From the NCBI GenBank assembly GCA_030688615.1, contig JAUYIZ010000008.1, positions 1 to 49,841 of the forward strand: a stretch of 49,841 nucleotides of DNA, written 5' to 3'. The position numbers and the translations under genes are program-made. The notes under the pieces were generated by a model. It did no database searches and had not been told where the DNA came from. It saw only the letters and a list, made by a program, of their open reading frames with translations. How positions within the stretch are numbered: position 1 is the stretch's first letter; the number at the start of each line of letters is the position of its first letter. The stretch is from Desulfobacterales bacterium (GTDB lineage: Bacteria > Desulfobacterota > Desulfobacteria > Desulfobacterales > JAUYIZ01). Of this stretch, positions 17,198 to 45,537 are shown one piece after another.

Positions 17198-18100
17198 ATG
17201 TTAATGTCATTGCCGAAATTTGAATACCTGGCCTGCACCGGCCTGGCCGAAGCCTGCTCCCTGCTTTCCCGCCATGCCGACGTCTCCAAAATCCTGGCCG
17301 GCGGCACGGACCTGCTGGTAAAGATGAAACACCGGCGAAGCGTGCCCCGGTACATCATTGACATCAAATCCATTCCGGACCTGGCCGGCATCCAAGCCGA
17401 TGAAAACGGGCTTCATATCGGTGCCTTAACTTTCGTCCAGGCCGTCAGCGATTCCGCGCTGGTAAGAAAATATTTTCCCATGCTCGGCCAGGCCGCCGGC
17501 AAACTGGGGACGCCCCATATACGGAACCTGGGAACCCTGGGGGGCAACCTGGCCAATGCCTCCCCGGCGGCGGAATTTGCCCCGGCGCTGTTAACGCTGG
17601 ACGCGCGCGTAACGCTCGTCAGGGCCGGCGGCGAGCGGACCCTGCCGCTGGAGGATTTTTTCACCGGGCCGGGCCGCAGCGCCATGGAGGCCGATGAGAT
17701 CCTGACCCGCATTCATATTCCCCACCGGCCCGGGCATGCCGGGGCCTATCTGAAATACAGCATCCGGCCCATGGATGTGGCCATGGTCAACCTGGCCGTG
17801 ATGGCCGTGCCGCAAGACGGGATATGCCGGGAAATCAAGATCGCTCTCGGGGCGGTGGGCCCGGTTCCCTTTCGGGCCCGCAGGGCCGAAGCGGTGATCC
17901 GGGGCCGGCCGCTGGGCAAGGATCTAAACGAGCTATTCCCCGTCGCGGCCCGGGCCGCCGCGGAAGAATCCAGGGCCATCAGCGACTATCGCGCCACGGC
18001 GGCGCACCGGACCCGGATGGTTGTTGACCGGGTTCAACAGGGTCTGGAACAGGCCTTCAGCGCCATCCGGTCCTGCAGGCAAAAAAACCATGAAACATAA
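17198..18100 (+). CDS. Xanthine dehydrogenase/CoxM-type FAD-binding subunit (module A)
   Basis: KILAGGTDLLVKMKHR; TLGGNLANASPAAE FAD-binding motifs. Confidence 0.92.
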   Translation: MLMSLPKFEYLACTGLAEACSLLSRHADVSKILAGGTDLLVKMKHRRSVPRYIIDIKSIPDLAGIQADENGLHIGALTFVQAVSDSALVRKYFPMLGQAAGKLGTPHIRNLGTLGGNLANASPAAEFAPALLTLDARVTLVRAGGERTLPLEDFFTGPGRSAMEADEILTRIHIPHRPGHAGAYLKYSIRPMDVAMVNLAVMAVPQDGICREIKIALGAVGPVPFRARRAEAVIRGRPLGKDLNELFPVAARAAAEESRAISDYRATAAHRTRMVVDRVQQGLEQAFSAIRSCRQKNHET

Positions 18101-20495
18101 GATTCAACTGACCGTCAACGAAGCCCGGCGCGAGATCGAGGTGGCGCCCTGGCAGACCCTTATGGATGTTCTGCGGGAAACCTTCCGGTTAACCAGGACC
18201 AAGGAAGGCTGCGGCGTCGGCGAGTGCGGCGCCTGCGCTGTTTTGATGGACGGCAAGATTGTCAGCGCCTGCCTGGTCCTGGCGGTCAATGCCGGCGGAA
18301 AGCAGATCACCACCATGGAAGGAGTGGACTCAAAACCCGGATTCACCGCCGTCATGGAGTCTTTCATCCACCCGGACCCCGGGGCCATGCGGGCCAGCCC
18401 GGACCCTCCCGGCGCCCATGCCAGCACGGAAACACTCACCTTCTGCCACATCTGCCCCGGGCACTGCAGCGTCAGAGCCGTGGTGGAAGACGGCCGGCTG
18501 GTGGACCTGGCGCCGGACGTGGAAAGCGGTCTGTTCAGCGAACAATGCGCGGTCAAAAAGGGACGTTTTACCATCCCCGAGGTCATGCGCCATCAGGACC
18601 GGCTCCTCTACCCCCAAAAAAGAAGCGGCGCCAGGGGCCAGGGCCAATGGCAACGCATTTCCTGGGACGAAGCCCTGGACACGGTGGCCTCAAAATTCAA
18701 GCAATTAAAAGCAAAATACGGACCGCAGTCCTTATCCTTCGGCCTGGGGGAGCCCAAGGGGCTGGAATTTGCCTTTGCCCAGCGGCTGGCCTCGGCTCTG
18801 GGCACGCCCAATGTGGTCACGCCCGGCTGGTGCTGCGGGATTCCCAAGGGCATGGCTTCGGCTTTTACCTACGGCAGCGGCTGTGTTTGCGACGATGGGA
18901 ACATTCCCGCCATGATCGTGCTCTGGGGGAGCAACATGGTGCATACCACCGGCGGGATGAGAAGAGAGACCCTGACGGCCGCCATCGAAAAGGGGGGCCG
19001 GCTGATCGTCATTGATCCGCAAAAGACCGATGTGGCCAAGCTGGCGGACCTGTGGATCAGGGTCCGGCCGGGAGGCGACGGCGCTCTGGCCATGGGCTTT
19101 TTAAAAGTCATGCTGGAAAAGAAGCTGTACGACGAGCATATCGTGGCAAACTGGACCATCGGTTTCGAGCAGTTACAGCAGCAGGTCGCCGCCTTTTCCC
19201 TGAAAGATGTGGAAAAGGCCACCTGGGTCCCGGCCGCACAAATGGAACAGTTCGTCGAGCTGTACGCACGGGTTAAACCGGCCGCCATGCAGACCGGAAA
19301 TGCGGTGGACCAGCTCATCAGCAGCTTCCAGACCGGACGGGCCATCGCCATCCTGCGGGCTCTGAGCGGCAACCTGAATATCCCCGGCGGCGACGTGTTT
19401 CTGACCTCTCCTCCCTTTACCCGGCCGGGAAGCTTCTTTTTATTGAAAAAATATCCGCGGGCGCCGGAACGGACCCTGGGAAAGCAATTCAAATTTGCCC
19501 AGGGTTCGGCCTTTATACCGCCCCACGCCTGGACCCGGGGGGTGCTGGAGGGAAAACCCCATCCCATCAAGGCGGCCATGTTTATTTTGACCAATCCCCT
19601 GGTCAGCTATCCGGATTCCCAGCAGGTTTACCGGGCCTTGATGCGCCTGGAATTCATGGTGACGTCCGAGTTGTTTATCACCCCCACGGCCGCCCTGGCG
19701 GACATCCTCCTCCCGGCCGCCTGGGGCATGGAGCACGACGAACTGGGATACTGGCCCGGATGGTACGAGGAAATCCGCTCCCATCCCAAGGTGGTGGATC
19801 CTCCGGGCCAATGCTGGCCCGATACCAAAATAATCAATGAACTGGCAAAACGGCTTGACATGCAGGAGGATTTTTGGAAGGATGATCACGAGGCCCTGGA
19901 CGCGATGCTGGCGCCCAGCGGGATGAAGTTTGAAGAATTTAAAAATGCCAGAGCGCTCAAACCCGAAAGGCAGTACCAAGCCCATGCTTACCGGACCCCG
20001 TCGGGCAAGATAGAGATTTATTCCGACAGGCTGGCGCAAATGGGATACGCCCCCCTTCCCCTGTGGGAAGAGGTGAGCAAAATACATGAAATTTCCCGGC
20101 AGTACCCGCTGTTGTTGAGCAACGCCAAGGAGGAAGCCTACATGCTTTCGGGCTTCAGGAGCATTGCTTCCCTGCGCATGATGCGGCCGGAACCCCTCGT
20201 GGAAATCAACCCGGAGACGGCGCGGTCCCTGGGCCTGCAAGAAGGCGACTGGGTTTACATTGAAACCGCCCGGGGCAAAATCCGGCAACGGCTTTTGCTG
20301 AACGATGATCTGGACCGCCGGGTGGTGATGGGGTCCTTCGGCTGGTGGTTTCCGGAGCAGCGTGAGATGGAATACGGCTGGCGTCACAGTAATATCAACA
20401 TCTTGATTCAAGCCGGCCCCGAATACGATCCTTCCACCGGAGGCATCACCCTGCGCGGCATTCCGTGCAAGCTTTACCCGGTGGAGCCTGATTAA
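18090..20495 (+). CDS. Fusion: XO/CoxS-type [2Fe-2S] domain + DMSO-reductase-family molybdopterin oxidoreductase (module A)
   Basis: KEGCGVGECGACAVLMDGKIVSACL then CHICPGHC...QCAVKKGR [4Fe-4S] and Mo-bisPGD domains; start moved to MKHKIQLTV. Confidence 0.92.
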   Translation: MKHKIQLTVNEARREIEVAPWQTLMDVLRETFRLTRTKEGCGVGECGACAVLMDGKIVSACLVLAVNAGGKQITTMEGVDSKPGFTAVMESFIHPDPGAMRASPDPPGAHASTETLTFCHICPGHCSVRAVVEDGRLVDLAPDVESGLFSEQCAVKKGRFTIPEVMRHQDRLLYPQKRSGARGQGQWQRISWDEALDTVASKFKQLKAKYGPQSLSFGLGEPKGLEFAFAQRLASALGTPNVVTPGWCCGIPKGMASAFTYGSGCVCDDGNIPAMIVLWGSNMVHTTGGMRRETLTAAIEKGGRLIVIDPQKTDVAKLADLWIRVRPGGDGALAMGFLKVMLEKKLYDEHIVANWTIGFEQLQQQVAAFSLKDVEKATWVPAAQMEQFVELYARVKPAAMQTGNAVDQLISSFQTGRAIAILRALSGNLNIPGGDVFLTSPPFTRPGSFFLLKKYPRAPERTLGKQFKFAQGSAFIPPHAWTRGVLEGKPHPIKAAMFILTNPLVSYPDSQQVYRALMRLEFMVTSELFITPTAALADILLPAAWGMEHDELGYWPGWYEEIRSHPKVVDPPGQCWPDTKIINELAKRLDMQEDFWKDDHEALDAMLAPSGMKFEEFKNARALKPERQYQAHAYRTPSGKIEIYSDRLAQMGYAPLPLWEEVSKIHEISRQYPLLLSNAKEEAYMLSGFRSIASLRMMRPEPLVEINPETARSLGLQEGDWVYIETARGKIRQRLLLNDDLDRRVVMGSFGWWFPEQREMEYGWRHSNINILIQAGPEYDPSTGGITLRGIPCKLYPVEPD

Positions 20496-20508: not shown

Positions 20509-21945
20509 ATGCCTTACAAGGACCTGCGGGAATTTATTCAAAAATGCGAACAATTAGGGGATGCGGTGGCCGTCCACCGGGAGGTGGACTGGAATCTGGA
20601 GGCCGGCGCCATCACCCGGCGATGCTGCGAGCTTCAGGCCCCCGCCCCTTTTTTTCAGAAAATCAAGGATTATCCCGCCGGCTACCGGATTTTCGGCGCC
20701 CCGCTGTCCACTTTCAGGCGGCTGGCCATTGCCATGGATTTGAATCCGGAGGCATCCGTGCGGCAAATCATAGACACCTACATTGAAAGAAGCCGGAAGA
20801 AAATCAAACCCAATATCGTCAAGGACGGGCCCTGTAAGGAAAACATCATGACCGGCGAGGAGGTGGATCTTTTTAAATTTCCCGCACCGTTCGTTCATCA
20901 CGGCGACGGGGGAAGGTACATCAGCACATTTCACATCATTGCCACCAAAGACCCGGACACCGGATGGGCGAACTGGGGCATGTACCGGCAGATGATCCAC
21001 ACCAAAAATTCCCTTGGGGGCCTGATGGCGCCGGCGCAACACATCGGCATGATGCTGCGCAATAAGTATGAAGCCCGCAACGAGCCCATGCCTTTTGCCG
21101 TTGCCATCGGCACGGAACCGATCACCTGCCTGGTGGGCGGGGCGGGAATACCCGCCGGGGTGGATGAAGTGGATGTCATCGGAGGCATCCGGGGACAGGC
21201 GCTGGACATCGTTAAATGCGAAACCGTGGATCTTGAGATCCCGGCCACATCCGAAATTGTCATTGAAGGGGTGGTTTTGCCGAAGGAACGGAAAATGGAA
21301 GGCCCCTTTGGAGAGTACGGGGGATACTGTTCCATTCCCAACCTGCCCCGGCCGGTTTACCAGGTCAGCGCCATCACCCATCGCAATGACCCCATCCTGA
21401 CCATGTCCAATATGGGAATGCCGGTGGACGATGCGGACATCATTCAGGGAATGACCATGGCGGCTGAAATCTTTGTCACCCTCAAAGACATGGGATTTCC
21501 GGTTACCGGCGTCCACACCCCGCCGGAGTGCTGCTGCTCCACGGTGGTCGTTGCCACCAAGGTGCCCTATGCCAATATCGCCTCCCGTATTGCCAGCGGC
21601 GTCTGGGCCAGCGCGGTGGGCCACTTTGTCGTGAAAATTATCATTGTAGACGACGATGTCGATCCGACCAACATGAACGAAGTCCTTCACGCCTGGGCCA
21701 CAAAATGTCATCCGATCCGGGGGACGACGGTCATCCCCCAGGCGGTCATGACACCGGCCTACCCCTATTACAGCCCGGAAGAGGTCCATTATAACACGGG
21801 CTGCAACGTTTATTACGATTGCACCTATCCGAAGCGATGGCCGAAGGAGAAAAAAGCCATCCGCTCCTCTTTCCGGGACATTTACCCCAAGGAAATCCAG
21901 GAGCAGGTGCTGGCCAACTGGTCCGATTACGGCTTTAAGCAATAG
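20509..21945 (+). CDS. UbiD-family decarboxylase (copy 4, module A)
   Basis: NWGMYRQMIH, MEGPFGEYGGYC, VDDDVDPTNMNEVLHAW. Confidence 0.93.
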   Translation: MPYKDLREFIQKCEQLGDAVAVHREVDWNLEAGAITRRCCELQAPAPFFQKIKDYPAGYRIFGAPLSTFRRLAIAMDLNPEASVRQIIDTYIERSRKKIKPNIVKDGPCKENIMTGEEVDLFKFPAPFVHHGDGGRYISTFHIIATKDPDTGWANWGMYRQMIHTKNSLGGLMAPAQHIGMMLRNKYEARNEPMPFAVAIGTEPITCLVGGAGIPAGVDEVDVIGGIRGQALDIVKCETVDLEIPATSEIVIEGVVLPKERKMEGPFGEYGGYCSIPNLPRPVYQVSAITHRNDPILTMSNMGMPVDDADIIQGMTMAAEIFVTLKDMGFPVTGVHTPPECCCSTVVVATKVPYANIASRIASGVWASAVGHFVVKIIIVDDDVDPTNMNEVLHAWATKCHPIRGTTVIPQAVMTPAYPYYSPEEVHYNTGCNVYYDCTYPKRWPKEKKAIRSSFRDIYPKEIQEQVLANWSDYGFKQ

Positions 21946-21957: not shown

Positions 21958-23538
21958 ATGCAAAAAGGAGAACGACTCGACCTTTCCATACCGGAGGAAT
22001 TTAATCTCGGCGCTTATTTTCTGGACGTCAATCTGATTGCCGGAAGGGGTGAAAACCCCGCCATCTATTACCAGGATGAAACCATTTCCTATCATGGCCT
22101 CTGGGCATTGACCAACAGGATGGGCAACGTGCTCAGGCGCCTGGGGGTGGAACCTGAAAATCGGGTCCTTCTGGTTCTGCAGGATTCCCCTGAATGGGTT
22201 GCCGGCTGGCTGGCAACCATGAAGGTCGGCGGCGTGGGCACCCATGCCTATACCTACTTGAAGCCCGATGACTACGCCTACCTGTTTGAACTTATCCGGC
22301 CCAAGGTCGTGCTGGTGGACCCCACCTGCCTGGATCTGCTCAGAAAAGCATCTGAAAAGTCCAAATACCCCGAAGCCTTCCTGGTGGCCGGGGGGCACAG
22401 CGGTGAACTTAGAGCACGCGAGTACGATTTATCCGAACTGCTCGGCGCTGCAAGCCAAGAGCTGGAAATTGAAAAAACCCACAGGGATGACACGGCCTTC
22501 TGGAACTTTTCCGGCGGCACCACCGGCAAACCCAAAGGGGTCCCCCATATGCATCGCGACGGGGTGGTGGCCTTCGAGTCCACCAACCATGTTCTGGGCT
22601 ACCGGCCCGATGACGTTGTGATTCGGGTACCCAAGCTGTTTTTTCATTATGCCAGGGATCTGGGGCTTCTTTTTCCCCTCCGGGCAGGGGCAGCGGTGGT
22701 CCTCTTTCCGGAAAGAACCACGGCCCGGGTCATTTTCAAGCTGGTGGAAAAATTCCGCCCGACCTTCCTCATTAATGTGCCCACCATGATGCGGGCCATG
22801 ATTCAGACCGCCGCAGCCGAACGCAGTGATCTGAGCTGTCTGCGGCGGGTGATGTCTTCGGGCGAGATGCTTTCGGCCCAGCTCTATAAAGAATGGGTGG
22901 ACACTTTTCAAATGGAGGTGGTCAACCGGTTCGGATCTGCCGAGTCGCTGACCGGTTATCTTTGCAACCGCCCCGGCGCAGTCGTTGCGGGAAGCTCCGG
23001 GACCGTCACCCCCATGAGCGCGGTGAAGATCGTGGACCGGCAGGGCCGTGAGGTTGCCCGGGGCGAGACCGGAGTTTTAATGGCCCGCACCGGGGCCGCG
23101 GCAATACATTACGTGCGGGATCACGAAAAATCTCTGTCCACCTTCACCGGCAACGGGTGGATCGATACGGGGGATCTTTTCAGACAGGATGAAAACAATT
23201 ACTTCTGGTATCTGGGGCGGGCTGATGACATGGTGAAGATCAGCGGGGTCTGGGTTTCGCCGCTGGAAATCGAACGCTGTCTCCAGACGCATCCGGACGT
23301 CAAAGAGTGCGCGGTAATGGGGTTGGAGGATCAGGACGGCCTGACAAAACTCAAAGCCTTCATTGTCATGGAAAAGAACGCCCCCGCTGCAGACAACCCC
23401 GCCGGGGACCTGATCGATTTCTGCAAAAAAAACCTGGCCACTTATAAATACCCGCGGTTTACCGAGTTCATGGACGAGCTGCCAAAAACCGGGCAAGGCA
23501 AGATAGACCGCCGGGAACTGCGGACGCGGAGCCTGTGA
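21958..23538 (+). CDS. Benzoate-CoA-ligase-like acyl-CoA synthetase (module A)
   Basis: FSGGTTGKPKGVPHMH; KISGVWVSPLEIE; PKTGQGKIDRREL. Confidence 0.92.
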   Translation: MQKGERLDLSIPEEFNLGAYFLDVNLIAGRGENPAIYYQDETISYHGLWALTNRMGNVLRRLGVEPENRVLLVLQDSPEWVAGWLATMKVGGVGTHAYTYLKPDDYAYLFELIRPKVVLVDPTCLDLLRKASEKSKYPEAFLVAGGHSGELRAREYDLSELLGAASQELEIEKTHRDDTAFWNFSGGTTGKPKGVPHMHRDGVVAFESTNHVLGYRPDDVVIRVPKLFFHYARDLGLLFPLRAGAAVVLFPERTTARVIFKLVEKFRPTFLINVPTMMRAMIQTAAAERSDLSCLRRVMSSGEMLSAQLYKEWVDTFQMEVVNRFGSAESLTGYLCNRPGAVVAGSSGTVTPMSAVKIVDRQGREVARGETGVLMARTGAAAIHYVRDHEKSLSTFTGNGWIDTGDLFRQDENNYFWYLGRADDMVKISGVWVSPLEIERCLQTHPDVKECAVMGLEDQDGLTKLKAFIVMEKNAPAADNPAGDLIDFCKKNLATYKYPRFTEFMDELPKTGQGKIDRRELRTRSL

Positions 23539-23592
23539 TGCCCGGGTGATAATTCTTTCAACTGGCTTTTTAAATAAACAGGAGGTGTGATT

Positions 23593-24600
23593 ATGAAAAG
23601 ACAGACCTTATGCTTGCTTGCTGCTTTCTTGGTTTTTTTCTCCTTGATCCAAGTAAATTCATCCCTTGCGGCGCCTTACTTTCAGGGGAAAAGAATCACT
23701 CTGATCGTCGGGTTTGCACCCGGGGGCGGCTACGATCGCATGGCCAGGCTTCTGGCCAGGTACCTGCCCGAGCACATCCCCGGCAAGCCCCGGTTTATCG
23801 TAAAGAACATCCCGGGGGGCAGCAGCATGATCGCGGCCAACCGGCTGTATAACATTGAAAAACCGGACGGATTTACCATCGGAACCATCAACCGGGGACT
23901 TCCCCTGGCCCAGCTGTTGAAAGTCGACGGGGTTGAATTCGACCTCAGAAAATTTTCCTGGCTCGGGTCCACATCGGTGGACACCAATGTCCTGTGCGTC
24001 CGGGCCGATCTGCCCTACCAAACCTTTGAAGAGTTCAAAAAGGCGGGCAAAACCCTTTTTATGGCCGCCGGTGGCCCCATGACGAGCAGCAGCCAGTTCG
24101 GCGTGCTCCTGAAAGAATTTTTAAACCTGGATATTAAAATCGTCACCTACACCAACATGGCCAATGCCCTGCTGGCAGTGGAACGCAAAGAGGCCGACGG
24201 GGTGCCCAGCACTTACAGCTCCCTGCTGCCGATGATCAACCGCGGCGTGCTACGTCCTTTGATCCGGTCGCAGAACTCTGCGGCGGGCATTGAAAACCTT
24301 CCTGTTGATGAAAATCTGGCCGCCACCGAACGGGGCAAGACGTTTCTCGGCATGCGGGCGGCCACGGATAATTTCGGCCGGCCCTATGTGGCGCCCCCGG
24401 GGGTGCCCGGCGATGTGTTGCAAATTTTAAGGGACGGCTTGCAAAATGTTTCCAAAGACCCGAAATTTCTGAAAGCCGCGGAAAAAGCGATGATGGAGAT
24501 TCAATTCGTCTCTCATGAAAAAGTCATGAAAGGGATCAATTATCTGCTGAATCAACCCGATGACATTGTTACCGAGTTCAGTAAATATATAAAGTTTTAG
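23593..24600 (+). CDS. Tripartite tricarboxylate transporter substrate-binding protein (TctC-like)
   Basis: Signal peptide; ITLIVGFAPGGGYDRMARLLARYLPEHIPGKP; GGAGGTG-like SD upstream of ATG. Confidence 0.88.
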   Translation: MKRQTLCLLAAFLVFFSLIQVNSSLAAPYFQGKRITLIVGFAPGGGYDRMARLLARYLPEHIPGKPRFIVKNIPGGSSMIAANRLYNIEKPDGFTIGTINRGLPLAQLLKVDGVEFDLRKFSWLGSTSVDTNVLCVRADLPYQTFEEFKKAGKTLFMAAGGPMTSSSQFGVLLKEFLNLDIKIVTYTNMANALLAVERKEADGVPSTYSSLLPMINRGVLRPLIRSQNSAAGIENLPVDENLAATERGKTFLGMRAATDNFGRPYVAPPGVPGDVLQILRDGLQNVSKDPKFLKAAEKAMMEIQFVSHEKVMKGINYLLNQPDDIVTEFSKYIKF

Positions 24601-24618
24601 GATTTAAGAGAGGAAACT

Positions 24619-26127
24619 ATGTTTGATGCCTTTATCGGCGGGTTATTTTTAGTCCTTCAGGGCAAATCTTTTCTTTTCCTGCTCATCGGCGTCGCCATCG
24701 GTTTCTGGGTCGGGATTCTCCCGGGGCTGGGAGGCGGCGCGACCCTGGCGCTGATGATGCCGTTTATCTATAACATGACCCCCCAAGAGGCTTTTCCCTT
24801 TCTTCTGGGCATGCACTCGGTGGTTGCGACCACCGGAGATATCACCTCGGTTCTCTTTGGGATTCCCGGGGAGCCGACGACCCTGGCCACGATCGTGGAC
24901 GGCTACCCCATGACCAAAAAGGGGGAAGCCGGGCGGGCGCTGGGTGCGGTCCTTATGAGCAGCCTGGTGGGCGCTGTTTTCGGCGCACTGTTCCTGGCGG
25001 TCAGCATCCCGGTTGTGCGCCCGCTGGTGCTTGCGCTGGGTTCTCCGGAAATGTTCATGGTGACGGTCCTGGGCCTGACCTGTATCGCCACCCTGAGCAG
25101 CCAGGGCAAGGGCGGGCTTTTCAAGGGGTTGCTGATCGGCGGGTTCGGCTTTTTGTGCTCCATGATCGGCCAGGACAGTCAGGCAGGTATTTTGCGCTTT
25201 ACTTTCGGATCGCTCTACCTGTGGGATGGCTTATCGGTCATCCCGGTCATGATCGGGCTTTTTGCCATCCCGGAAATCGTTGACCTGGCCGTCCGCGGGA
25301 CCGGCATCGCCGGTGATGTGGCGTTCGGCAAACTCGGCAAAGGGGTCAAGGAGGGGGTCATCGACACCTTTCGTCATTTCTGGCTCACCATCCGCTGCAG
25401 CGCCATCGGTGCGGTTATCGGCATCATCCCCGGGGTCGGGGGCGGCGTTTCCCAGTGGATGTCCTATGCCCATGCCACCCAGAGCGCCAAGACGCTGGAG
25501 GAAAGAGACGGCTTTGGTAAAGGGGACGTCCGGGGCGTGCTGGGTCCGGGGGCATCGAATAACTCCAAAGAAGGCGCGAACCTGATCCCCACGATTGCCT
25601 TCGGCGTTCCCGCAAGTGTCGGGATGGCCATCCTGTTAGGCGCATTCCTCGTTCTCGGGATCGTTCCGGGTCCGGACATGCTGACCAAGCATCTGACGCT
25701 GACCTACTCCATGGTCTGGACCATTGTGATCGCCAACCTCATTACCGTGCCCATATGCCTGCTTTTTATCGATCAGCTGGCTAAATTGACCACCATCCGG
25801 GGAAATTTGATCATTCCCTTCATTCTGCTGCTCTGTTTTATCGGGGCCTATTCTTCCAACAACAGTATCGGCGATCTCATCGTCGTGCTGATTTTTGGCG
25901 GCATCGGTTGTTTCCTGATGCGATTTCGCTGGCCGCGTCCGCCATTTATCCTTGGATTTATTCTCGGCAGTCTGGCCGAAGGATATCTTTTTACCTCCAC
26001 GCTGCGTTATGGGGCCAATTGGCTATACCGCCCCAAGGTCATTATCATCTTTCTGATTATCGTTGCCTTTGCCATGCACCCTTATATTCAGAAAAAAAGG
26101 CTGATGAAGCAAGGAGGCGGAAAGTGA
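24619..26127 (+). CDS. Tripartite tricarboxylate transporter permease (TctA family)
   Basis: GILPGLGGGATLALMMPFIY, FGIPGEPTTLATIVDGYPMTKKGEAGRALGAV, GIIPGVGGGVSQWMSYAHA. Confidence 0.95.
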   Translation: MFDAFIGGLFLVLQGKSFLFLLIGVAIGFWVGILPGLGGGATLALMMPFIYNMTPQEAFPFLLGMHSVVATTGDITSVLFGIPGEPTTLATIVDGYPMTKKGEAGRALGAVLMSSLVGAVFGALFLAVSIPVVRPLVLALGSPEMFMVTVLGLTCIATLSSQGKGGLFKGLLIGGFGFLCSMIGQDSQAGILRFTFGSLYLWDGLSVIPVMIGLFAIPEIVDLAVRGTGIAGDVAFGKLGKGVKEGVIDTFRHFWLTIRCSAIGAVIGIIPGVGGGVSQWMSYAHATQSAKTLEERDGFGKGDVRGVLGPGASNNSKEGANLIPTIAFGVPASVGMAILLGAFLVLGIVPGPDMLTKHLTLTYSMVWTIVIANLITVPICLLFIDQLAKLTTIRGNLIIPFILLLCFIGAYSSNNSIGDLIVVLIFGGIGCFLMRFRWPRPPFILGFILGSLAEGYLFTSTLRYGANWLYRPKVIIIFLIIVAFAMHPYIQKKRLMKQGGGK

Positions 26128-26624
26128 GATGGAACGTAAACAGCTATATCAGCCTCTGCCTGATGGGCATTGCCCTCGCCGTCATAATCACCGCGTTGGG
26201 GTGGCCCTTTAGAACCGCCCTGTTTCCGATAAGCATCGGCATTGCCGTTATCGTTTTCGCCGCCGTTGAATTGATCCGCAGCTTGTTTTTTGAAAAAGAG
26301 GCGCCGGAGGCTGCCGCAACCGAACCAGCGGACCCGGAAAAGGACGACGAAGTCGACCCGGTCCTTGCCAGGCAGAGAACCTGGAACATTTTCGCCTGGA
26401 TTCTGGGCTTTTGCCTGATGATTCTGCTGCTGGGCTTTCCCGTTGCCGTGCCCCTGCTGGTCTTTACCTATTTAAGGTTTCACGGCAAGGAAAGCTGGGG
26501 CCTGACGCTGCTGCTCACCGCGTTGACCTTCCTGTTTTTTCAGGGTCTTTTTGTCTGGCTGCTGAACACCTTTTTTGCCGAAGGCTGGCTCATCATCGCC
26601 ATCGAAAGGCTGTTGGAATCATGA
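26124..26624 (+). CDS. Tripartite tricarboxylate transporter TctB family protein
   Basis: In-frame GTG at 26124 overlaps the tctA stop (GTGA); TM profile. The ORF-track start at 25908 lies inside tctA. Confidence 0.82.
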   Translation: MRWNVNSYISLCLMGIALAVIITALGWPFRTALFPISIGIAVIVFAAVELIRSLFFEKEAPEAAATEPADPEKDDEVDPVLARQRTWNIFAWILGFCLMILLLGFPVAVPLLVFTYLRFHGKESWGLTLLLTALTFLFFQGLFVWLLNTFFAEGWLIIAIERLLES

Positions 26625-35344: not shown

Positions 35345-35481
35345 TGTTTTAATGGCTTCGCCCCGGATTTTATCTTCTTTGCTCTTGACACAAAAGTCCC
35401 GGAAAGCTTAATGTATTTTTTCAACAGGGGCCTGACAGGGCCGCATGTTTGATGAAATCAGATTACCCAGGAGGTATTACA

Positions 35482-37059
35482 ATGAGCGTGGGAACTTATG
35501 CAACCCTTCCCCTGCCCCCGGAGTTTAACATGGCATCCTATATCCTGGATGACAACCTCGCCGCAGGAAGGGGCAGCCGGACCGCAATCTACTATCGCAA
35601 TGAAACGTACACCTTCCATGACATCTGTGCGCTGACCAACCGGGCCGGCAATGTGTTGAAGCAAATCGGCGTGGAGCGGGAAAACCGTGTCCTGGTTATC
35701 CTGAACGACTCTCCCGAATGGGTAGCCACCTGGCTTGGCGCCATAAAAATCGGCGCCGTGGCGACCCATGCCTACAGTTACCTGGTGGCGGAAGATTACG
35801 GCTACTTTTTAAACTACGTGAAGCCCAAGGCCGTGGTGGTGGATGAAAGCACCCTGGAAACCGTCAGACAAGGGGCGAAGCTGTCACGGTGCCCGGTAAA
35901 ATTTCTGGTCAAAGGTTTGTCCGGGGCCAAGCTTCAGAAAAACGAATATTCCCTGGACGAAATGATCCGGGCGGCCAGCCCGTCCCTGGAGGCGGAACCC
36001 ACCTCCAAAGACGATATCGCCTGCTGGAACTGGTCGGGGGGAACCACCGGGAAACCCAAAGCAGTGCCCCACATGCACCATGACTTTGCCGTCGCCTTTG
36101 AATCCTTTCAGGAAATTGTTCATTACAACGAGCAGGATGTCATGCTCAATGTCCCCAAGCTTTTTTTTCATTACGCCCATGATCTCGGATTGAACTTTCC
36201 TTTAAGAGCCGGAGGATCGGTGATTTTGTTTCCCGAAAGGACCTCGCCGCAGATTATTTTCCAGCTGATCAAAGAGCATCAGCCGACCCTGCTCCTCAAC
36301 GTTCCCACCATGATGCGGGCCATGCTGCAGGTGCCCGGGGAAGAACAGGCCGATCTGAGTTCCATCCGCATCAATTTTTCTTCGGGAGAAGCGCTTTCCG
36401 AGCAACTTTACAACGAATGGAAAACAACCTTCCAGGGGGACGTGGTGGAGCCCATAGGGTCTGCGGAGGCCTATCTGGGCTACATTGTCAACCGCCCCGG
36501 TCAAAAAGTACCCGGCAGCGTCGGGAAAGTGGCGCCTTTTGTGGAAGCCAAAATTGTGGACGACCAGGGCCGGGAGGTTCCCAGAGGCAAGCAGGGCGTC
36601 CTCCTGATTCGCGCGGATTCCGTGGGAACCGGCTATCACCTGGAACACGAAAAGTCCAAGCAGACCTTTCTGGGAAATGACTGGCTCAACACCGGAGACA
36701 TTTTCCGCCATGATGAGGATAATAATTTCTTTTATATCGGCCGGGGCGGAGATCTGATCAAAGTCAGCGGTGTATGGATTTCTCCTTTCCAGATCGAGGC
36801 TCACCTCCAGACCCATGAAAAAATCAAAGAATGCGCGGTCCTCGGCATTCAGGACCAAGACGGCCTGACCAAAACGAAAGCTTATATCGCGCTGCAGGAC
36901 GGGGGGGCGGGTTCGGAGGCCTTGAAAAAAGAGCTGGTCGGTTTTTGCAAAAATACGTTAGGCGGCCATAAGTATCCGAGGACCATAGAGTTTTTAGCGG
37001 AACTGCCCAAAACCGGACAGGGCAAAATTGATAGGCTCAGGCTGCGTGAAAAGGAGTAA
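35482..37059 (+). CDS. Benzoate-CoA-ligase-like acyl-CoA synthetase (module B)
   Basis: WSGGTTGKPKAVPHMHH; KVSGVWISPFQIE; PKTGQGKIDRLRL; AGGAGG SD before ATG 35482. Confidence 0.92.
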   Translation: MSVGTYATLPLPPEFNMASYILDDNLAAGRGSRTAIYYRNETYTFHDICALTNRAGNVLKQIGVERENRVLVILNDSPEWVATWLGAIKIGAVATHAYSYLVAEDYGYFLNYVKPKAVVVDESTLETVRQGAKLSRCPVKFLVKGLSGAKLQKNEYSLDEMIRAASPSLEAEPTSKDDIACWNWSGGTTGKPKAVPHMHHDFAVAFESFQEIVHYNEQDVMLNVPKLFFHYAHDLGLNFPLRAGGSVILFPERTSPQIIFQLIKEHQPTLLLNVPTMMRAMLQVPGEEQADLSSIRINFSSGEALSEQLYNEWKTTFQGDVVEPIGSAEAYLGYIVNRPGQKVPGSVGKVAPFVEAKIVDDQGREVPRGKQGVLLIRADSVGTGYHLEHEKSKQTFLGNDWLNTGDIFRHDEDNNFFYIGRGGDLIKVSGVWISPFQIEAHLQTHEKIKECAVLGIQDQDGLTKTKAYIALQDGGAGSEALKKELVGFCKNTLGGHKYPRTIEFLAELPKTGQGKIDRLRLREKE

Positions 37060-37061
37060 TC

Positions 37062-37946
37062 ATGTTACTAAGTCTTCCAAAATTTGAATATGTTTCCTGC
37101 AATACGATCGAGGAGGCCTGCGCCCTTCTTTCATCGCATCAGGGGAAAGCACAGGTCATGGCAGGCGGTACAGATCTGCTGGTGAAAATGAAACACAGAA
37201 AAGTTCTGCCCGACTGCCTGATCAACATCAAAAGAATCCCGCAGATCGACTACATTCGCTATGATGCGCTCAAAGAGGTGCGCATCGGAACCCTGGCCAC
37301 CATACAGACATTGCGGAACTCGCCGGTCATCATGAAAAATTTTTCGATTCTGAACCAGGCCGCCAAGGTCCTGGGGACGACGCATGTCCGCAACCTGGCG
37401 ACACTGGGGGGAAATTTGTGCAACGCCTCTCCGGCTTCAGAGTGTGCCGGTCCTTTATTGGCCCTGTCGGCCACCGTGAAGATCATGGGGCCCCAGGGAG
37501 AACGAAGGGTCCCGGTGGAAGAATTCTTCGTCCAACCCGGGAAAAGCGTTCTGAAACACGATGAAATCCTCACGGAGATACAGATTCCCAAACCGCCGCC
37601 CCATTCCGGGGGCGTGCACCTTAAATACAGCACCCGGCGGGTGGATGTGTGCATCGTCAGCGCCTCCGTGCTGCTGACCCTGGACGGCCCGAAATGTCAG
37701 GATGTGAGAATCTCCTTAGGGGCCGTGGGACCGATCCCTTTCCGGGCTAAAAAAGCAGAAAATATCCTTAAAGGACAACCCCTCGTCGGTGACGCGGAAA
37801 GCGTGATTGCCAAGGCGGCCCAGGCGGCCTCTGACGAGTCGTTCCCGATAGACGATTTCCGGGGCGCCGCCGATTTCAGAAAGGAGCTGGTAAAACGTCT
37901 GGTCGCTGAAGGGATCCAGGGGGCGATAGCAAATGCAAGGTTGTAA
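37062..37946 (+). CDS. Xanthine dehydrogenase/CoxM-type FAD-binding subunit (module B)
   Basis: QVMAGGTDLLVKMKHR; TLGGNLCNASPASE. Confidence 0.92.
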   Translation: MLLSLPKFEYVSCNTIEEACALLSSHQGKAQVMAGGTDLLVKMKHRKVLPDCLINIKRIPQIDYIRYDALKEVRIGTLATIQTLRNSPVIMKNFSILNQAAKVLGTTHVRNLATLGGNLCNASPASECAGPLLALSATVKIMGPQGERRVPVEEFFVQPGKSVLKHDEILTEIQIPKPPPHSGGVHLKYSTRRVDVCIVSASVLLTLDGPKCQDVRISLGAVGPIPFRAKKAENILKGQPLVGDAESVIAKAAQAASDESFPIDDFRGAADFRKELVKRLVAEGIQGAIANARL

Positions 37947-37964
37947 GAAACGGGAGGAGATGGA

Positions 37965-40370
37965 ATGGAACATAAGATTCAGTTGACGGTAAACGGAGAT
38001 CTCCGTGAAATCAGCGTCACGCCAAGCCAGACGCTTTTAGATGTTCTGCGGGATGAATTCAAGTATTCAAGGACCAAGGAGGGATGCGGCGCCGGCGAGT
38101 GCGGGTCATGTGCCGTCTCCATGGACCGCAAGATGGTCCCATCCTGCCTGGTGCTGGCCGTGGATGCCGACAATAAAATTATCATCACTTCAGAGGCCCT
38201 GACCGACGAGACCGGATTCCATCCGGTCATGGAGGCTTTTATTCACTCGGAAGGCGGCGCCATGCAGGCCAGCGTGGCCCCTCCCGGGACCAAGACCATG
38301 CAGGAGGTCTTCACCTTCTGCCATCTGTGCTGCGGCCATTGCAGCGTCAAGGCCATCGTGGAAGACGGAAGGGTTGTGGATATGGAGCCGGATATGGACA
38401 GCGGCTTTTCCAGCGAACAGTGCCCCCTGAAAAAAGGACGTCATGCCATACCGGAAGTGCTGTACCATCCGGACCGGCTGATCTATCCGCGGAAAAGAAT
38501 CGGCGAGCGAGGCGGGGGGAAATGGGAGAGAATTTCCTGGGAGGAAGCGCTGGACACGATTGCCGGCAAATTCATGGCGCTGAAGGAAAAGTACGGCCCC
38601 ACCGCCCTGGCCTTGGGCCTGGGAGAACCCAAGGGGATGGAATTTGCCTTTGCCCAGAGATTTGCCACCGTTTTCGGCACTCCCAATGTGGTGACGCCCG
38701 GATGGAGCTGCGGGATTCCGGTCGGGCAGGGATCCGCCATGACATATGGCTGGAACTGCGTTCCGGACGACGAAAACCTGCCCGGTCTTGTGGTCCTCTG
38801 GGGCTGCAACCTTGTGCACACCACGGGCGGCATGAGAAGGGAAACACTGGAAGCCGTCCTGAACAACGGCGGCAAACTGATCGTGATCGATCCCCAGAAG
38901 ATCGATATGGCCAGGGTGGCCCACCTGTGGATTAAAATAAGGCCCGGAAGCGACGGCGCTCTGGCCATGGGCGCCTTGAAAGTGATCATCGAGGAAAAAC
39001 TCTATGACGCGGACATCGTTGCCAACCGAACCGTGGGTTTTGAAAAACTGGAACAGCATGTAAAAACCTTTTCCCTTGAGGAGGTCGAACAGGTCACCTG
39101 GGTGCCCAGACGGCAGATCGAGGAATTTGCCAGGCTCTACGCGCAGACCAAACCGGCAGCGATCCAGTGGGGTAACGCGCTGGATCAGCTTGCCAACAGT
39201 TTTCAGAGCGGCCGGGCCATATCCATCATGAGGGGCATCACCGGCAACCTCAACATTCCCGGCGGAGATGTGTTCCTCACCCCGGCGCCGTTTACCAGGC
39301 CCGGGCGCTTCTTTCTGCTGGGCAAATACCCGCGCAAGCCGGAACGCATCCTCGGGGATCGCTTTAAAATGGCCCAGCGTTCCGCTTTTATTCCGCCCCA
39401 TGCCATGATGAAGGCGATTCTGGAAGAAAAACCCTATCCCATCAAGGCGGCCATGTTTATCCTGACCAACCCCCTGGTGAGCTACCCGAATTCCAAAGAA
39501 ACCTATAAAGCGCTGATGAAACTGGATTTCATCGTGGTTTCAGAGCTGTTCATGACGCCCACGGCCGCCCTGGCCGATATCGTGCTTCCGGCAGCCTGGG
39601 GCATGGAGCATGAAGAGGTGGGATACTGGCCGGGATGGTATGAGGAAATGCGCGCGCATCCCAAAATCGTCGACCCGCCCGGAGAATGCTGGCCGGACAC
39701 CAAAATCATCAACGAGCTTGCCAAACGGCTCGGCATGCAGGAAGACTTCTGGGAAGACGATCATGAAGCGCTCGATTACATGCTCAAGCCCAGCGGCATG
39801 ACCTACGAGCAGTTTAAAGCCAAAAGAGCCATTTTCCCCAAACGGGAATACCGCAAACATGATTACCGCACACCGTCCGGTAAAATAGAGATCTACTCCG
39901 AGCAGCTTGATCAGATGGGCTACAGCCCCATGCCCCTTTTCGAAGCGGTCAACCACTTTCCCGAAGCGACGGATCGATTCCCGCTTCTTTTGACCAATGC
40001 CAAAGAGGAAGCCTACATGCTCTCCTCTTACAAGAGTGTCGCGTCCATCCGAACCATGCGGCCGGACCCGGTGGTGGAACTGCATCCGGACATGGCGGAC
40101 CAGCTGGGGCTCAAGGAAGGCGATTGGGTGACCATTGAAACCAAGGAAGGGAAAATCAGGCAAAAACTCTCCCTGAACAAGGAAATCGATCCGCGCGTCG
40201 TCATCGCGGCTTTCGGCTGGTGGTTTCCGGAGGACTCCTCCCGGGCGTTTGGATGGAATAAATCCAATATTAATATGCTGACTCCCAGCGGGCCCGATTA
40301 TGACGTCACTACCGGAGGGTTGGCATTGCGGGGCATCCCCTGCAAGGTTTATCTTGAACAGGCATCGTGA
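37965..40370 (+). CDS. Fusion: XO/CoxS-type [2Fe-2S] domain + DMSO-reductase-family molybdopterin oxidoreductase (module B)
   Basis: KEGCGAGECGSCAVSMDRKMVPSCL; CHLCCGHC...QCPLKKGR; Mo-bisPGD domain and C-terminal dinucleotide-binding domain. Confidence 0.93.
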   Translation: MEHKIQLTVNGDLREISVTPSQTLLDVLRDEFKYSRTKEGCGAGECGSCAVSMDRKMVPSCLVLAVDADNKIIITSEALTDETGFHPVMEAFIHSEGGAMQASVAPPGTKTMQEVFTFCHLCCGHCSVKAIVEDGRVVDMEPDMDSGFSSEQCPLKKGRHAIPEVLYHPDRLIYPRKRIGERGGGKWERISWEEALDTIAGKFMALKEKYGPTALALGLGEPKGMEFAFAQRFATVFGTPNVVTPGWSCGIPVGQGSAMTYGWNCVPDDENLPGLVVLWGCNLVHTTGGMRRETLEAVLNNGGKLIVIDPQKIDMARVAHLWIKIRPGSDGALAMGALKVIIEEKLYDADIVANRTVGFEKLEQHVKTFSLEEVEQVTWVPRRQIEEFARLYAQTKPAAIQWGNALDQLANSFQSGRAISIMRGITGNLNIPGGDVFLTPAPFTRPGRFFLLGKYPRKPERILGDRFKMAQRSAFIPPHAMMKAILEEKPYPIKAAMFILTNPLVSYPNSKETYKALMKLDFIVVSELFMTPTAALADIVLPAAWGMEHEEVGYWPGWYEEMRAHPKIVDPPGECWPDTKIINELAKRLGMQEDFWEDDHEALDYMLKPSGMTYEQFKAKRAIFPKREYRKHDYRTPSGKIEIYSEQLDQMGYSPMPLFEAVNHFPEATDRFPLLLTNAKEEAYMLSSYKSVASIRTMRPDPVVELHPDMADQLGLKEGDWVTIETKEGKIRQKLSLNKEIDPRVVIAAFGWWFPEDSSRAFGWNKSNINMLTPSGPDYDVTTGGLALRGIPCKVYLEQAS

Positions 40371-40382
40371 AAGGAGACGAAG

Positions 40383-41825
40383 ATGGCATACGCGGATTTA
40401 AGAGAATATATGCATCAGCTCGAAGCGCAGGGGCAACTGACGCGGATTCAGGCGCAAGTGGACTGGAATCTGGAACTGGGCGCCATCATGCGGCGCGCCA
40501 ACGATTTAAGGCAGCCTGCGCTTCTCTTTGAAAACATCAAGGGCTATTCACCGGATTACCCGGTCCTGGCCAACCTGACCGGCGCCACAAAACCAAACCC
40601 CTACGGCCGGCTCTGCATCGCCCTGGATCTTCCCGTGGACACGCCGCCCCTGAAGATTATCGACGAGCTGGTCCAAAGGTTTTCAGCGCCCATCAAACCT
40701 GTCCGGGTGAAAACGGGCCCATGCAAAGAAAATATCTTCCATGGTGACGATGTGGATCTCTTGAAATTTCCCGTCCCCCATCTGCGGGAGCTCGACGGCG
40801 GCCGGTATATGGGCACCTGGCACACGGACATCAACCGGGACCCTGATTCGGGGTGGGTAAACTGGGGAATGTACCGGCATATGCTCATCGACAGGCAAAC
40901 CCTTGCATGGATGGCCAATCCGGGTCAGCATGGACCCGGCATCTACTATCAGAAATATGAAGCCAGAGGGGAGAAAATGCCCATCGCTGTGGTGATCGGC
41001 ACCGACCCCGCCTGCGCCCTGGCATCCATATCCCTGGTCACGCCCTACATCAATGAGGTGGAGATCGCCGGCGGACTCAGGAAAAAGCCGGTGGAACTGA
41101 TCCAGTGTGAGACCAGTGATCTTGAAGTTCCCGCCACGGCCGAGATTGTCCTGGAGGGTGAAGTGCTTCCGGATGACAGGCAGCCGGAAGGGCCTTTTGG
41201 CGAATACACCGGGTATTGTTCCAGCGACAGATCGCCGCGCAACGTGATTCATATCAAATGTATCACCCATCGGAACCAACCCGTACTGACCGTTTCCAGT
41301 CCCGGCAAACCCCTGGATGACTCGACCTATGTTTATGCCCTTTTCGGCAGCGCGGCCTTGAGCATGGAGCTAAAAAAGCTGGGACTTCCCTTTAAATCCA
41401 TCTGTTTGAGCTCATCCATGATGGCCGTTATCGTCTCAACATCCGAAACCTACCCGGGATATGTCCATACGCTCTCTTCGGCCATCTGGGGGACCAAAAC
41501 GGGCGTCTATCGCCCGGTGATCGTCGTGGTCGGTGAAGACGTGGACGTGACCAATATGGATGAGGTCATGTGGGCCCTGACCACCCGGGTGCATCCGGTG
41601 CGGGATATCCATGTCAAAAAACGGGCCCCCAGTCATGCCATCTTCCCTTTTATTTCACCGGAAGAAAGGAAAAACCTCACCGGGGCGGCGGTCTGCTATG
41701 ATGCGACGTTTCCCTTTGAATGGAAAGAAAATAAACCCAAGGTGGTTGATTTTCAGCATGCCTGGCCCGAGGAAATCCAGCGACTGGTCATGAAAAGGTG
41801 GAGCGAATACGGATTCAAGGGTTAG
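40383..41825 (+). CDS. UbiD-family decarboxylase (copy 5, module B)
   Basis: NWGMYRHMLIDRQT, PEGPFGEYTGYCSS, VGEDVDVTNMDEVMWAL. Confidence 0.93.
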   Translation: MAYADLREYMHQLEAQGQLTRIQAQVDWNLELGAIMRRANDLRQPALLFENIKGYSPDYPVLANLTGATKPNPYGRLCIALDLPVDTPPLKIIDELVQRFSAPIKPVRVKTGPCKENIFHGDDVDLLKFPVPHLRELDGGRYMGTWHTDINRDPDSGWVNWGMYRHMLIDRQTLAWMANPGQHGPGIYYQKYEARGEKMPIAVVIGTDPACALASISLVTPYINEVEIAGGLRKKPVELIQCETSDLEVPATAEIVLEGEVLPDDRQPEGPFGEYTGYCSSDRSPRNVIHIKCITHRNQPVLTVSSPGKPLDDSTYVYALFGSAALSMELKKLGLPFKSICLSSSMMAVIVSTSETYPGYVHTLSSAIWGTKTGVYRPVIVVVGEDVDVTNMDEVMWALTTRVHPVRDIHVKKRAPSHAIFPFISPEERKNLTGAAVCYDATFPFEWKENKPKVVDFQHAWPEEIQRLVMKRWSEYGFKG

Positions 41826-42653: not shown

Positions 42654-43055
42654 TTAATTATTAATTACAGGCCGACAGTCAGACCGGCAAACCATATCAG
42701 TCCCCCACATGATATCCAAAACAAGCTTGACTTCATCTTTTGTAAGTACTGTGGGCAGGTTTTTAGATCTTTTGCCCCTTTCCATTTTCCCGAAGTCCCC
42801 CAACTGCCTGTTTAAAATCTGTTTATAAAGAAAAACAATTGCATTAAGCGCCTGGTTCTGGGTGCTTGCGGAAACATTTCGCTTTACCGCAAGGTATGAT
42901 ATGTATTGTGAAATCTCGCTCTCTCCCATATCTTTGGGATGTTTTTTCCCATGAAAAAGGATAAATCTTTTTATCCATTCGGTATATGCCTGTTCCGTAC
43001 GAATTGAATAGTGCCTTTTCCTGATGACGTTACGGACCTGATCCAATAGTCTCAC
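42654..43055 (-). pseudogene. intI (truncated): Truncated integron integrase (IntI N-terminal SAM-like domain only)
   Basis: LLDQVRNVIRKRHYSIRTEQAYTEWIKRFILFHGKKHPKDMGESEISQYISYLAVKRNVSASTQNQALNAIVFLYKQIL...LPTVLTKDEV; catalytic domain absent. Confidence 0.88.
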
Positions 43056-43285
43056 GATTCACTCCTTATATGGGCCATTATAATGTTGACAATTTGCCGG
43101 TAATATGCAAAATAAAAAATTACCATTTATTAGACAATCTTTTATGATTCATAAGATAAACATAATTGATTCTAAAATGCAACATCTTTTTTTCCTTTTG
43201 CCGTCTTTTCCAAAGCCATATAAGCTTTAATCGTATTATTTTCTTTGTAATTTTAAAAGGTTATAAATTTTTCAAAAAAAGTGAT

Positions 43286-43443
43286 ATGCGGCTAAAAAGC
43301 CTCGTATTGGAAATATGCGGCTTTTTAGCCGTATTTCACATTTCAATATGAAACAACTGTTTACCCTAAGGCATTGTATTATTGATAATTATTGATTTTA
43401 CGGCGACAAAAAGCCGTAATTAATTGCGGCTTTTTAGCCGTAT
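43286..43443. repeat. Iterated palindromic motif GCGGCTTTTTAGCCGTAT
   Basis: Exact 19-bp direct repeats tgcggctttttagccgtat at 43316-43334 and 43425-43443 plus inverted partial copies near 43286 and 43407. Confidence 0.8.
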
Positions 43444-43471
43444 ACTCTAATGTTCGGCAGAGGAATAATTC

Positions 43472-44140
43472 ATGACCACACTACCAATTATCTTCAGAGA
43501 CGGGCATCTATTCGTTGAGAGTGACGGGTGGCTGTGGCTGTTTGACACAGGTGCACCGGCAAGCTTTGGCGAGTCAAATAAAATTACACTTGATGCTCAG
43601 TGCTTCCGGTTGAGTAATGGCTACATGGGACTGTCAGCCTCAACGCTTTCGCAGTTCACCGGAGTTGAATGTCGCGGACTTATTGGTGCTGATATTCTTG
43701 GCAAGTTTGATCACCTTCTTGACGTTCCCAGCGGTACGGTCACCATTTCAACAGGCGATTTGGAACATACCGGCAAGACATTACCCTTATCTGAGTTCAT
43801 GGGCATTCCGATTCTCACAGCGCGAATTGCCAGTAGCGATTATCGGATGTTCTTCGATACAGGCGCACAGATTTCCTATTTCCAAGAGGACACCATCACT
43901 GACTTTCCATCTGCCGGCACCATTACCGATTTCTACCCTGGTATTGGCCAGTTCCAGACCGACACGCACCAGCTTCAAGTTGGACTGGGCGACTGTGCCT
44001 TCACACTCCGCTGCGGCACACTTCCGGGCTTGCTTGGTGCAACGCTCATGATGGCGGGTACGTCAGGAATTATTGGCAACCAGATAATGGAGAATCGGGT
44101 CATCGGCTATTTCCCACGGAGAAATGTACTGTGCCTGTGA
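43472..44140 (+). CDS. Retropepsin-like aspartyl protease-fold protein (two DTGA motifs)
   Basis: WLFDTGAPAS and MFFDTGAQIS. Confidence 0.7.
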   Translation: MTTLPIIFRDGHLFVESDGWLWLFDTGAPASFGESNKITLDAQCFRLSNGYMGLSASTLSQFTGVECRGLIGADILGKFDHLLDVPSGTVTISTGDLEHTGKTLPLSEFMGIPILTARIASSDYRMFFDTGAQISYFQEDTITDFPSAGTITDFYPGIGQFQTDTHQLQVGLGDCAFTLRCGTLPGLLGATLMMAGTSGIIGNQIMENRVIGYFPRRNVLCL

Positions 44141-44907
44141 ACCGCAATCCGCATTCTTCATGGGCAGAAGTTTACGATCTTGCCTACGATCGATCCTGGG
44201 GTGAGTTTTATAACAGATTGACCGTTGCAACAATCAAAGTGATAACGGACAGAATCCGCCCCGGCGGGAGCATTGTTGACTTTGGCGCGGGAACAGGTCG
44301 CCTTTCAATTCCACTTGCAGACAAGAGTTTTGAGGTTACCGCCGTTGACCCTTGCTGTGAGATGCTCTGTCAATTGAAGCAGAAAAAACGGGAAGGGATG
44401 AAGTTACGCACAGTCTGCTCAAAGATGCAAGACTTCAAGGAGAGCAATTTTGATTTTGCCCTTTGTGTTTTTACCGTCTTGCTCTATTTGCTGGATGAAG
44501 AATCTCTGAAGAAAGCCCTTTCGGCAGCGCATGGCGCCTTGAAACCTGACGGCATGCTACTTATTGATATTCCATCCAGAAGGATATTTCAGGATTACTC
44601 AAGAAAGGATGATTTGATTGAGCGTTTTGTTTCTGTGATTGAAGAGAATGGGGACATCTACCGCTACCAAGAAAAATTGAAAGTGAGTGGGCCTATCGGC
44701 GAGGAATCAACATATTCGGATGAATTCAAGATTAGGTACTGGCCATCGGAGTATGTGAGCAACACTTTGGTGACAACCGGATTTATCCTTGAAGCTGATT
44801 TGACGGATCACTTCTCTGGTACCGGGTCGCATTACTGGATAATGAAGAAAGCCGAACAAAGCGCTGCACCGGACGGCAATTCCGCTGCGCTCCATTGCCG
44901 CCGGTGA
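44131..44907 (+). CDS. SAM-dependent methyltransferase (class I)
   Basis: GGSIVDFGAGTGRLSIPLADKSFEVTAVDPCCEML; FDFALCVFTVLLYLLDEESL. Confidence 0.9.
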   Translation: MPVNRNPHSSWAEVYDLAYDRSWGEFYNRLTVATIKVITDRIRPGGSIVDFGAGTGRLSIPLADKSFEVTAVDPCCEMLCQLKQKKREGMKLRTVCSKMQDFKESNFDFALCVFTVLLYLLDEESLKKALSAAHGALKPDGMLLIDIPSRRIFQDYSRKDDLIERFVSVIEENGDIYRYQEKLKVSGPIGEESTYSDEFKIRYWPSEYVSNTLVTTGFILEADLTDHFSGTGSHYWIMKKAEQSAAPDGNSAALHCRR

Positions 44908-44922
44908 GCTTTAGCGTTCGGC
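44851..44922 (+). repeat. attC: Integron attC site 1 (72 bp)
   Basis: GCCGAAC ... CCGGACGGCAATtccgctgcgctccATTGCCGCCGG ... GTTCGGC; extrahelical G in L'' arm. Confidence 0.9.
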
Positions 44923-45523: not shown

Positions 45524-45537
45524 GCAGTAACACAAAA

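Follow-up and report, generated by a model that had tools for sequence, protein, structure and literature searches.

Can the electron-transfer module of one molybdenum enzyme superfamily be joined to the catalytic subunit of another? The question is raised by a gene, here called HYB2, in a 49,841-nt stretch of DNA from Desulfobacterales bacterium (contig JAUYIZ010000008.1; contig C310 of genome G000), the whole of which is referred to below as the window. An initial annotation of this DNA had described the HYB2 product as a CoxS-like N-terminus followed by [4Fe-4S] and Mo domains of the dimethyl sulfoxide reductase (DMSOR) type. This description was borne out by Pfam, NCBIfam, and PDB matches and by the alignment of cysteines, and at the sequence level HYB2 was confirmed as the fusion of a [2Fe-2S] domain of the CoxS/XdhC type with a complete DMSOR-superfamily subunit that has a predicted [4Fe-4S] cluster, Mo/W-bisPGD (pyranopterin guanine dinucleotide) cofactor, and Cys ligand. 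The broader proposal, that a flavin adenine dinucleotide (FAD)/[2Fe-2S] relay of the xanthine oxidase (XO) type has been joined to a DMSOR-type catalytic subunit, held in every test. As far as the open-access literature shows, such an interchange of electron modules between these two large superfamilies was not known before.

Domain architecture and predicted metal site

The HYB2 open reading frame (ORF) begins with ATG and has a good GGGAGGAG ribosome site upstream. Pfam placed Fer2 (PF00111) at residues 8 to 61, Molybdopterin (PF00384) at 171 to 588, and Molydop_binding (PF01568) at 674 to 778. Molybdop_Fe4S4 (residues 112 to 146) scored 20.0 bits, slightly below the cut-off of 22.7, although all four of its cysteines are invariant. 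Fer2_2 (PF01799), the second, all-alpha [2Fe-2S] domain of the XO family, was not found in HYB2 by Pfam. NCBIfam models matching residues 4 to 108 were XdhC, PucE, the gamma subunit of glyceraldehyde dehydrogenase, and PaoA, while the remainder matched Fdh-alpha, PhsA, and DmsA. The PDB matches were divided in the same place, with residues 5 to 109 resembling the small FeS subunit of nicotinate dehydrogenase and residues ∼112 to 759 resembling acetylene hydratase, polysulfide/thiosulfate reductase, and the formate dehydrogenase FDH-H. A NuoG/FdsA-type N-terminus was ruled out, as residues 1 to 110 matched the XdhC/CoxS type only (Pfam and NCBIfam); the proposed fusion therefore survived the domain search for a NuoG/FdhA-type Fer2 domain that the initial annotation had itself recommended. 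The cysteine spacing of the Fer2 domain, C41-x4-C46-x2-C49-x11-C61, is also that of CoxS, and the nine cofactor cysteines (41, 46, 49, and 61; 119, 122, 126, and 153; 249) were invariant across eight aligned fused homologues. HYB2 thus carries the Molybdopterin and Molydop_binding domains, [4Fe-4S] Cys motif, and Cys metal ligand of the DMSO reductase (MopB) superfamily together with a CoxS-type Fer2 domain which, with the CoxM-type FAD subunit encoded beside it, belongs to the XO family. An AlphaFold model supported the DMSOR fold (pTM, 0.74; mean pLDDT, 73), with low confidence in the Fer2 cluster loops (36 to 49) and the linker (81 to 110).

In alignments, Cys249 falls on the metal ligand of acetylene hydratase and on Sec140, a selenocysteine (Sec), of FDH-H. 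The initial annotation had pointed to this region as a candidate for the Mo-Cys ligand, and support came from an unfused relative of the same phylum (49%; L064:7926-10094, G409:C4), in which the sole in-frame stop is a TGA exactly at the Cys249 position. The relative's gene sits behind a CoA ligase gene and likely encodes a selenoprotein. No Rfam match to a bacterial selenocysteine insertion sequence was obtained for it, so Sec is read there from the position of the TGA only. Two known identities were considered for HYB2 and ruled out. Formate dehydrogenase is unlikely because Cys249 is followed by Gly250 and not His, and Arg333 and Gln335 of FDH-H align with Pro440 and Pro442. Acetylene hydratase itself was excluded because it has an Asp directly after its second cluster Cys, a position occupied in the hybrids by Cys, Pro, or Ala.

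Origin and distribution of the fusion

The initial annotation had proposed searching other genomes for the same architecture and neighbours. A scan of GTDB genomes identified seven fused loci, to which a follow-up added one; with two copies in the window this gave 10 loci in eight genomes. All are contigs of metagenome-assembled genomes (MAGs), labelled as deposited Syntrophobacterales, Chloroflexi (two), Burkholderiales, beta-proteobacterium, Actinobacteria, and Rhodospirillaceae, in addition to G000. Ten independent fused loci exclude a chance explanation, and an assembly chimera was likewise ruled out. Searches of 396 same-phylum genomes and of 29 and 299 others, a sample that does not extend to all of life, revealed no more fused copies outside the seed genomes. 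A FAD gene was adjacent to the hybrid in all 10 loci and a CoA ligase gene in nine; in the remaining locus (L026) the contig opens with an enoyl-CoA hydratase instead. Four of the 10 had UbiD nearby; among the rest, several are truncated. L028 is interrupted by a frameshift, and its neighbours are UbiD and an HGD-D of the benzoyl-CoA-reductase type. Genes for AhtL-like polyhydroxybenzene enzymes, of the pyrogallol transhydroxylase family, were found near the hybrid in the beta-proteobacterial/Burkholderiales MAGs (L029:3-2096, reverse strand; L029:16040-18379; L069:13240-13998).

Phylogenetic trees indicate that the hybrid is single in origin. In a tree of the DMSOR part (55 sequences), the fused proteins grouped as a single clade (100/98) whose sister group was four unfused proteins of the same phylum, and the hybrid Fer2 domains formed one group (98/95) against CoxS proteins from G000. 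The FAD proteins of the cassettes clustered weakly (79/39), and their tree largely mirrors that of the hybrids, with the branchings (FAD2,(FAD1,(L024,L069))) and (L031,(L027,L029)) the same in both. A possible unfused version in G000, a CoxS gene adjoining a DMSOR gene on contig C8, was ruled out, as the CoxS protein there goes with an XO large subunit encoded next to it.

The site of the join could be traced. Similarity to CoxS does not end with Fer2 but reaches the first helix of Fer2_2 and stops at the first two cluster cysteines of this domain (GAMQ-ASVAPPG against GAFQ-CGFCTPG), which are replaced in HYB2; the DMSOR [4Fe-4S] motif comes next. Ordinary XO enzymes have the Fer2 cluster on the FAD side and the Fer2_2 cluster on the Mo side. 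With its join inside Fer2_2 and the loss of these cysteines, the fusion therefore put the [4Fe-4S] cluster of the DMSOR subunit in place of the XO cluster nearest Mo and kept the FAD-facing one. The swap is complete, conserved, and duplicated, and it is cut at a functional joint of the relay.

Two cassettes in the window

HYB2 lies in the cassette ligase-FAD-hybrid-UbiD (copy 2, 35449 to 41825). A second complete cassette, overlooked in the first reading, was found at 17198 to 23538 in the order FAD1-HYB1-UbiD-ligase, followed by TctCAB (Table 1). Between the copies, identity is highest for the hybrid and lowest for UbiD. HYB1 and HYB2 differ by 0.25, 0.17, and 0.49 at the three codon positions, which implies a protein under constraint. 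This two-copy pattern suggests one enzyme type for two substrates.

Table 1. Features of the hybrid enzyme and the two cassettes in the window
Feature	Position	Strand	Details
HYB2, fused CoxS-type Fer2 and DMSOR-type catalytic subunit	37965..40370	+	801 aa; Pfam, NCBIfam, and PDB matches, alignment
Fer2 domain of HYB2 ([2Fe-2S], XO Fe-S II type)	37965..38264	+	Residues 1-100; Cys 41, 46, 49, 61
Remnant of first helix of lost CoxS Fer2_2 domain in HYB2	38220..38288	+	Residues 86-108: HPVMEAFIHSEGGAMQ-ASVAPPG vs HPLQQAFL-ENGAFQ-CGFCTPG; pairwise BLAST to residue 108
[4Fe-4S] motif of HYB2, C119-x2-C122-x3-C126-x26-C153	38319..38423	+	Pfam, alignment
Cys249 of HYB2 (TPGWSCG), predicted Mo/W ligand	38709..38711	+	Alignment; in-frame TGA in unfused relative
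FAD2, CoxM/XdhB-type FAD subunit directly before HYB2	37062..37946	+	FAD_binding_5 and CO_deh_flav_C; without 4-HBCR [4Fe-4S] insert
Benzoate-CoA ligase family protein, copy 2	35449..37059	+	TIGR02262 above cut-off
UbiD-family (de)carboxylase, copy 2	40383..41825	+	Pfam, NCBIfam
FAD1, FAD subunit of copy 1	17198..18100	+	47% to FAD2
HYB1, second hybrid enzyme, copy 1	18090..20495	+	67% identical to HYB2; true start taken at 18090
UbiD-family (de)carboxylase, copy 1	20509..21945	+	43% to copy-2 UbiD
Benzoate-CoA ligase family protein, copy 1	21958..23538	+	55% to copy-2 ligase
TctC, TctA, TctB carboxylate transporter behind copy 1	23587..26624	+	Pfam

The CoxM-type FAD gene noted in the initial annotation was recovered by its two domains, and its observation that an XO-type large subunit is missing also stood: this subunit (Ald_Xan_dh_C/MoCoBD) gave no TIGR03194 match on the window contig and was absent from the scanned neighbouring proteins. 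No separate CoxS gene was found on the window contig. FAD1 and FAD2 matched without a break, whereas paralogues resembling 4-hydroxybenzoyl-CoA reductase (4-HBCR) split near position 118; the two subunits accordingly have no 4-HBCR [4Fe-4S] insert. Both ligases of the window scored above the curated TIGR02262 cut-off of 375.25 bits (429.5 and 420.1 bits), and those of L027, L029, and L031 were below it, though near.

Five diverged UbiD-family genes (6476 to 7918, 9696 to 11279, 14859 to 16289 on the reverse strand, and one in each cassette) and two TctABC sets occur in the window, which points to an aromatic-carboxylate island. Between the cassettes are genes for an ArsR-rhodanese regulator, a SelD-like (AIRS) protein, and TauE (26750 to 29333), possibly related to selenium or sulfur, and a set comprising an MMPL transporter, a LolA-like protein, and a DUF1302-like outer-membrane protein (29416 to 34106). 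The end of the window (42654 to 49460) is lower in GC (0.459), and by eye it seems to contain an integrase fragment, a HigB/HigA-like pair (45692 to 46326), and two transposase-like ORFs (46525 to 48003 and 48195 to 49460).

The G000 genome is an estimated 93% complete with 6% contamination. Its molybdoenzyme set is very large, with ∼38 XO large-subunit matches (several of them 4-HBCR-like), >30 CoxS domains, and >20 DMSOR-type genes. The ordinary XO sets have their own FAD and CoxS genes. The oah gene of the benzoyl-CoA pathway is present, divided over two contig ends.

Proposed function and known systems

Judged from sequence, the hybrid and its partner make up a predicted two-subunit molybdo- or tungstoenzyme, consisting of a CoxM-type FAD protein and a subunit that holds two clusters, a [2Fe-2S] of the CoxS type and a [4Fe-4S], besides a bis-pterin site of the DMSOR type with a Cys ligand. 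It probably represents an unrecognised class of aromatic acyl-CoA dehydroxylases or hydroxylases working without oxygen, in which a CoxMS module drives the DMSOR site and which would have arisen by one ancient fusion that excised the Mo-facing [2Fe-2S] domain and then spread horizontally across several phyla, among anaerobes that degrade aromatic compounds. The function we favour, at a probability of about 0.5, is the reductive dehydroxylation of an aryl-CoA (or aryl acid) by a cytoplasmic enzyme fed through FAD. The hybrid should be cytoplasmic, as no twin-arginine translocation (TAT) signal was observed ahead of Fer2 and the partners make CoA thioesters. Electrons would enter at FAD, supplied for example by NAD(P)H or ferredoxin, and reach the Mo/W site by way of first the [2Fe-2S] and then the [4Fe-4S] cluster, a relay left unbroken because the Mo-facing XO cluster was exchanged for the DMSOR subunit's own. 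The neighbouring ligase would supply an aromatic acyl-CoA, from whose ring the Mo/W site would strip a hydroxyl or, with lower likelihood, an amino group, and the carboxyl group and the ring could be dealt with by UbiD and the benzoyl-CoA pathway. The two copies, whose ligases and UbiDs have diverged, may serve two different hydroxyaromatic acids. Reductive dehydroxylation is favoured because the gut catechol dehydroxylases and the hybrid are both closest to acetylene hydratase, and because both parent superfamilies include aromatic dehydroxylases; the FAD and ligase counts, the AhtL-like and HGD-D/UbiD neighbours, and oah also count for it. The aromatic acyl-CoA substrate suggested in the initial annotation fits the ligases and these neighbours, while its reductive or hydroxylating chemistry is still a matter of inference.

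Several observations weigh against a reductive dehydroxylase. Since the FAD subunits are without the 4-HBCR insert, which serves low-potential electron input, an oxidation with electrons exiting via FAD is possible. AhtL-like proteins are known also from the oxidative hydroxyhydroquinone route, and with ∼38 XO large-subunit homologues in G000, several 4-HBCR-like, an extra dehydroxylase is not strictly needed. An oxidative enzyme is the foremost competitor, albeit a less likely one: the complex would use water to hydroxylate an acyl-CoA or acid, whether aromatic or heteroaromatic, and electrons would leave via [4Fe-4S], [2Fe-2S], and FAD to an acceptor such as NAD or a flavoprotein. The AhtL-like genes beside L029 and L069 suit an oxidative polyphenol route, and the nearest solved FAD subunits are those of 6-hydroxypseudooxynicotine dehydrogenase and CO dehydrogenase. 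XO-FAD modules, moreover, mostly serve oxidations (PMC12771579). Against this, the DMSOR part is nearest to acetylene hydratase, in whose lineage the reductive catechol dehydroxylases fall, and the benzoate-CoA-ligase-type partners indicate benzoyl-CoA-type metabolism. The known Mo steps of that metabolism take off OH.

It is unlikely that another substituent (amino, halogen, or thio) is removed reductively from an aryl-CoA, or that the enzyme, like acetylene hydratase or pyrogallol transhydroxylase, carries out a hydration or transhydroxylation that is formally non-redox. The closest fold is that of acetylene hydratase, and anthranilate-CoA ligase is the nearest solved relative of the cassette ligase, yet the deaminase candidates of D. 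anilini are 4-HBCR-like XO proteins, a dedicated FAD/[2Fe-2S] relay would make no sense for a non-redox reaction, and the acetylene hydratase Asp is not conserved in the hybrids. There is very little to recommend the FAD subunit as a leftover of an XO enzyme that pairs with a large subunit elsewhere, with the hybrid Fer2 domain fed by an unrelated donor. The many XO large subunits of G000 would allow it, but its ordinary XO sets come with their own FAD and CoxS genes, the FAD gene adjoins every hybrid across several phyla, and the mirrored trees and the grouping, though weak, of the cassette FAD proteins point the same way.

The hybrid is a candidate for orphan steps of anaerobic hydroxyaromatic degradation. 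Its architecture is not described in the literature, as far as open-access papers show, and each of the systems nearest to it shares some of its parts. NAD-dependent formate dehydrogenases (FdsA and FdhA type) likewise have a DMSOR subunit with an N-terminal [2Fe-2S] domain, but theirs is NuoG/hydrogenase-like with extra clusters (PMC10100899), unlike the CoxS-like one of the hybrid. The pyrogallol transhydroxylase/resorcinol hydroxylase-like (AhtL) enzymes are DMSOR-superfamily proteins with aromatic substrates and occur near the hybrid in loci L029 and L069, but the hybrid has no AhtL-like_1st domain and scored weakly to 4v4c. No solved enzyme comes closer in sequence to the catalytic part than acetylene hydratase from Pelobacter acetylenicus (PDB 2e7z), at 410 bits with 259 for the runner-up, and none matches it better in fold, but acetylene hydratase has neither a Fer2 domain nor a FAD partner. 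It is also the closest characterised relative of the gut catechol dehydroxylases (Dadh, Hcdh, and Cldh), bis-MGD (molybdopterin guanine dinucleotide) enzymes that act on aromatic OH (PMC7028382). These were compared with the hybrid by description and by this common nearness only; they have 4Fe-4S ferredoxin partners, some of the dehydroxylase systems carry TAT signals and membrane anchors, and an XO-type FAD/[2Fe-2S] module is not described for them. Within the XO family, 4-HBCR (HcrABC) and urolithin C dehydroxylase (Ucdh) dehydroxylate aromatics and, like the hybrid, combine a FAD subunit with a CoxS-type [2Fe-2S] domain; Ucdh, which is FAD linked, takes electrons from NADH (PMC12771579). 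Their catalytic subunit is of the XO type, with a molybdopterin cytosine dinucleotide cofactor, and they have a second [2Fe-2S] domain, neither of which the hybrid has, and 4-HBCR further differs in the insert of its FAD subunit and in its HcrA-type alpha subunit, which has no counterpart in the window. The hybrid would place a DMSOR-type site in the role that an XO-type site fills in 4-HBCR, and is thereby a natural test of what sets a Mo site to reduce or to oxidise an aromatic ring.
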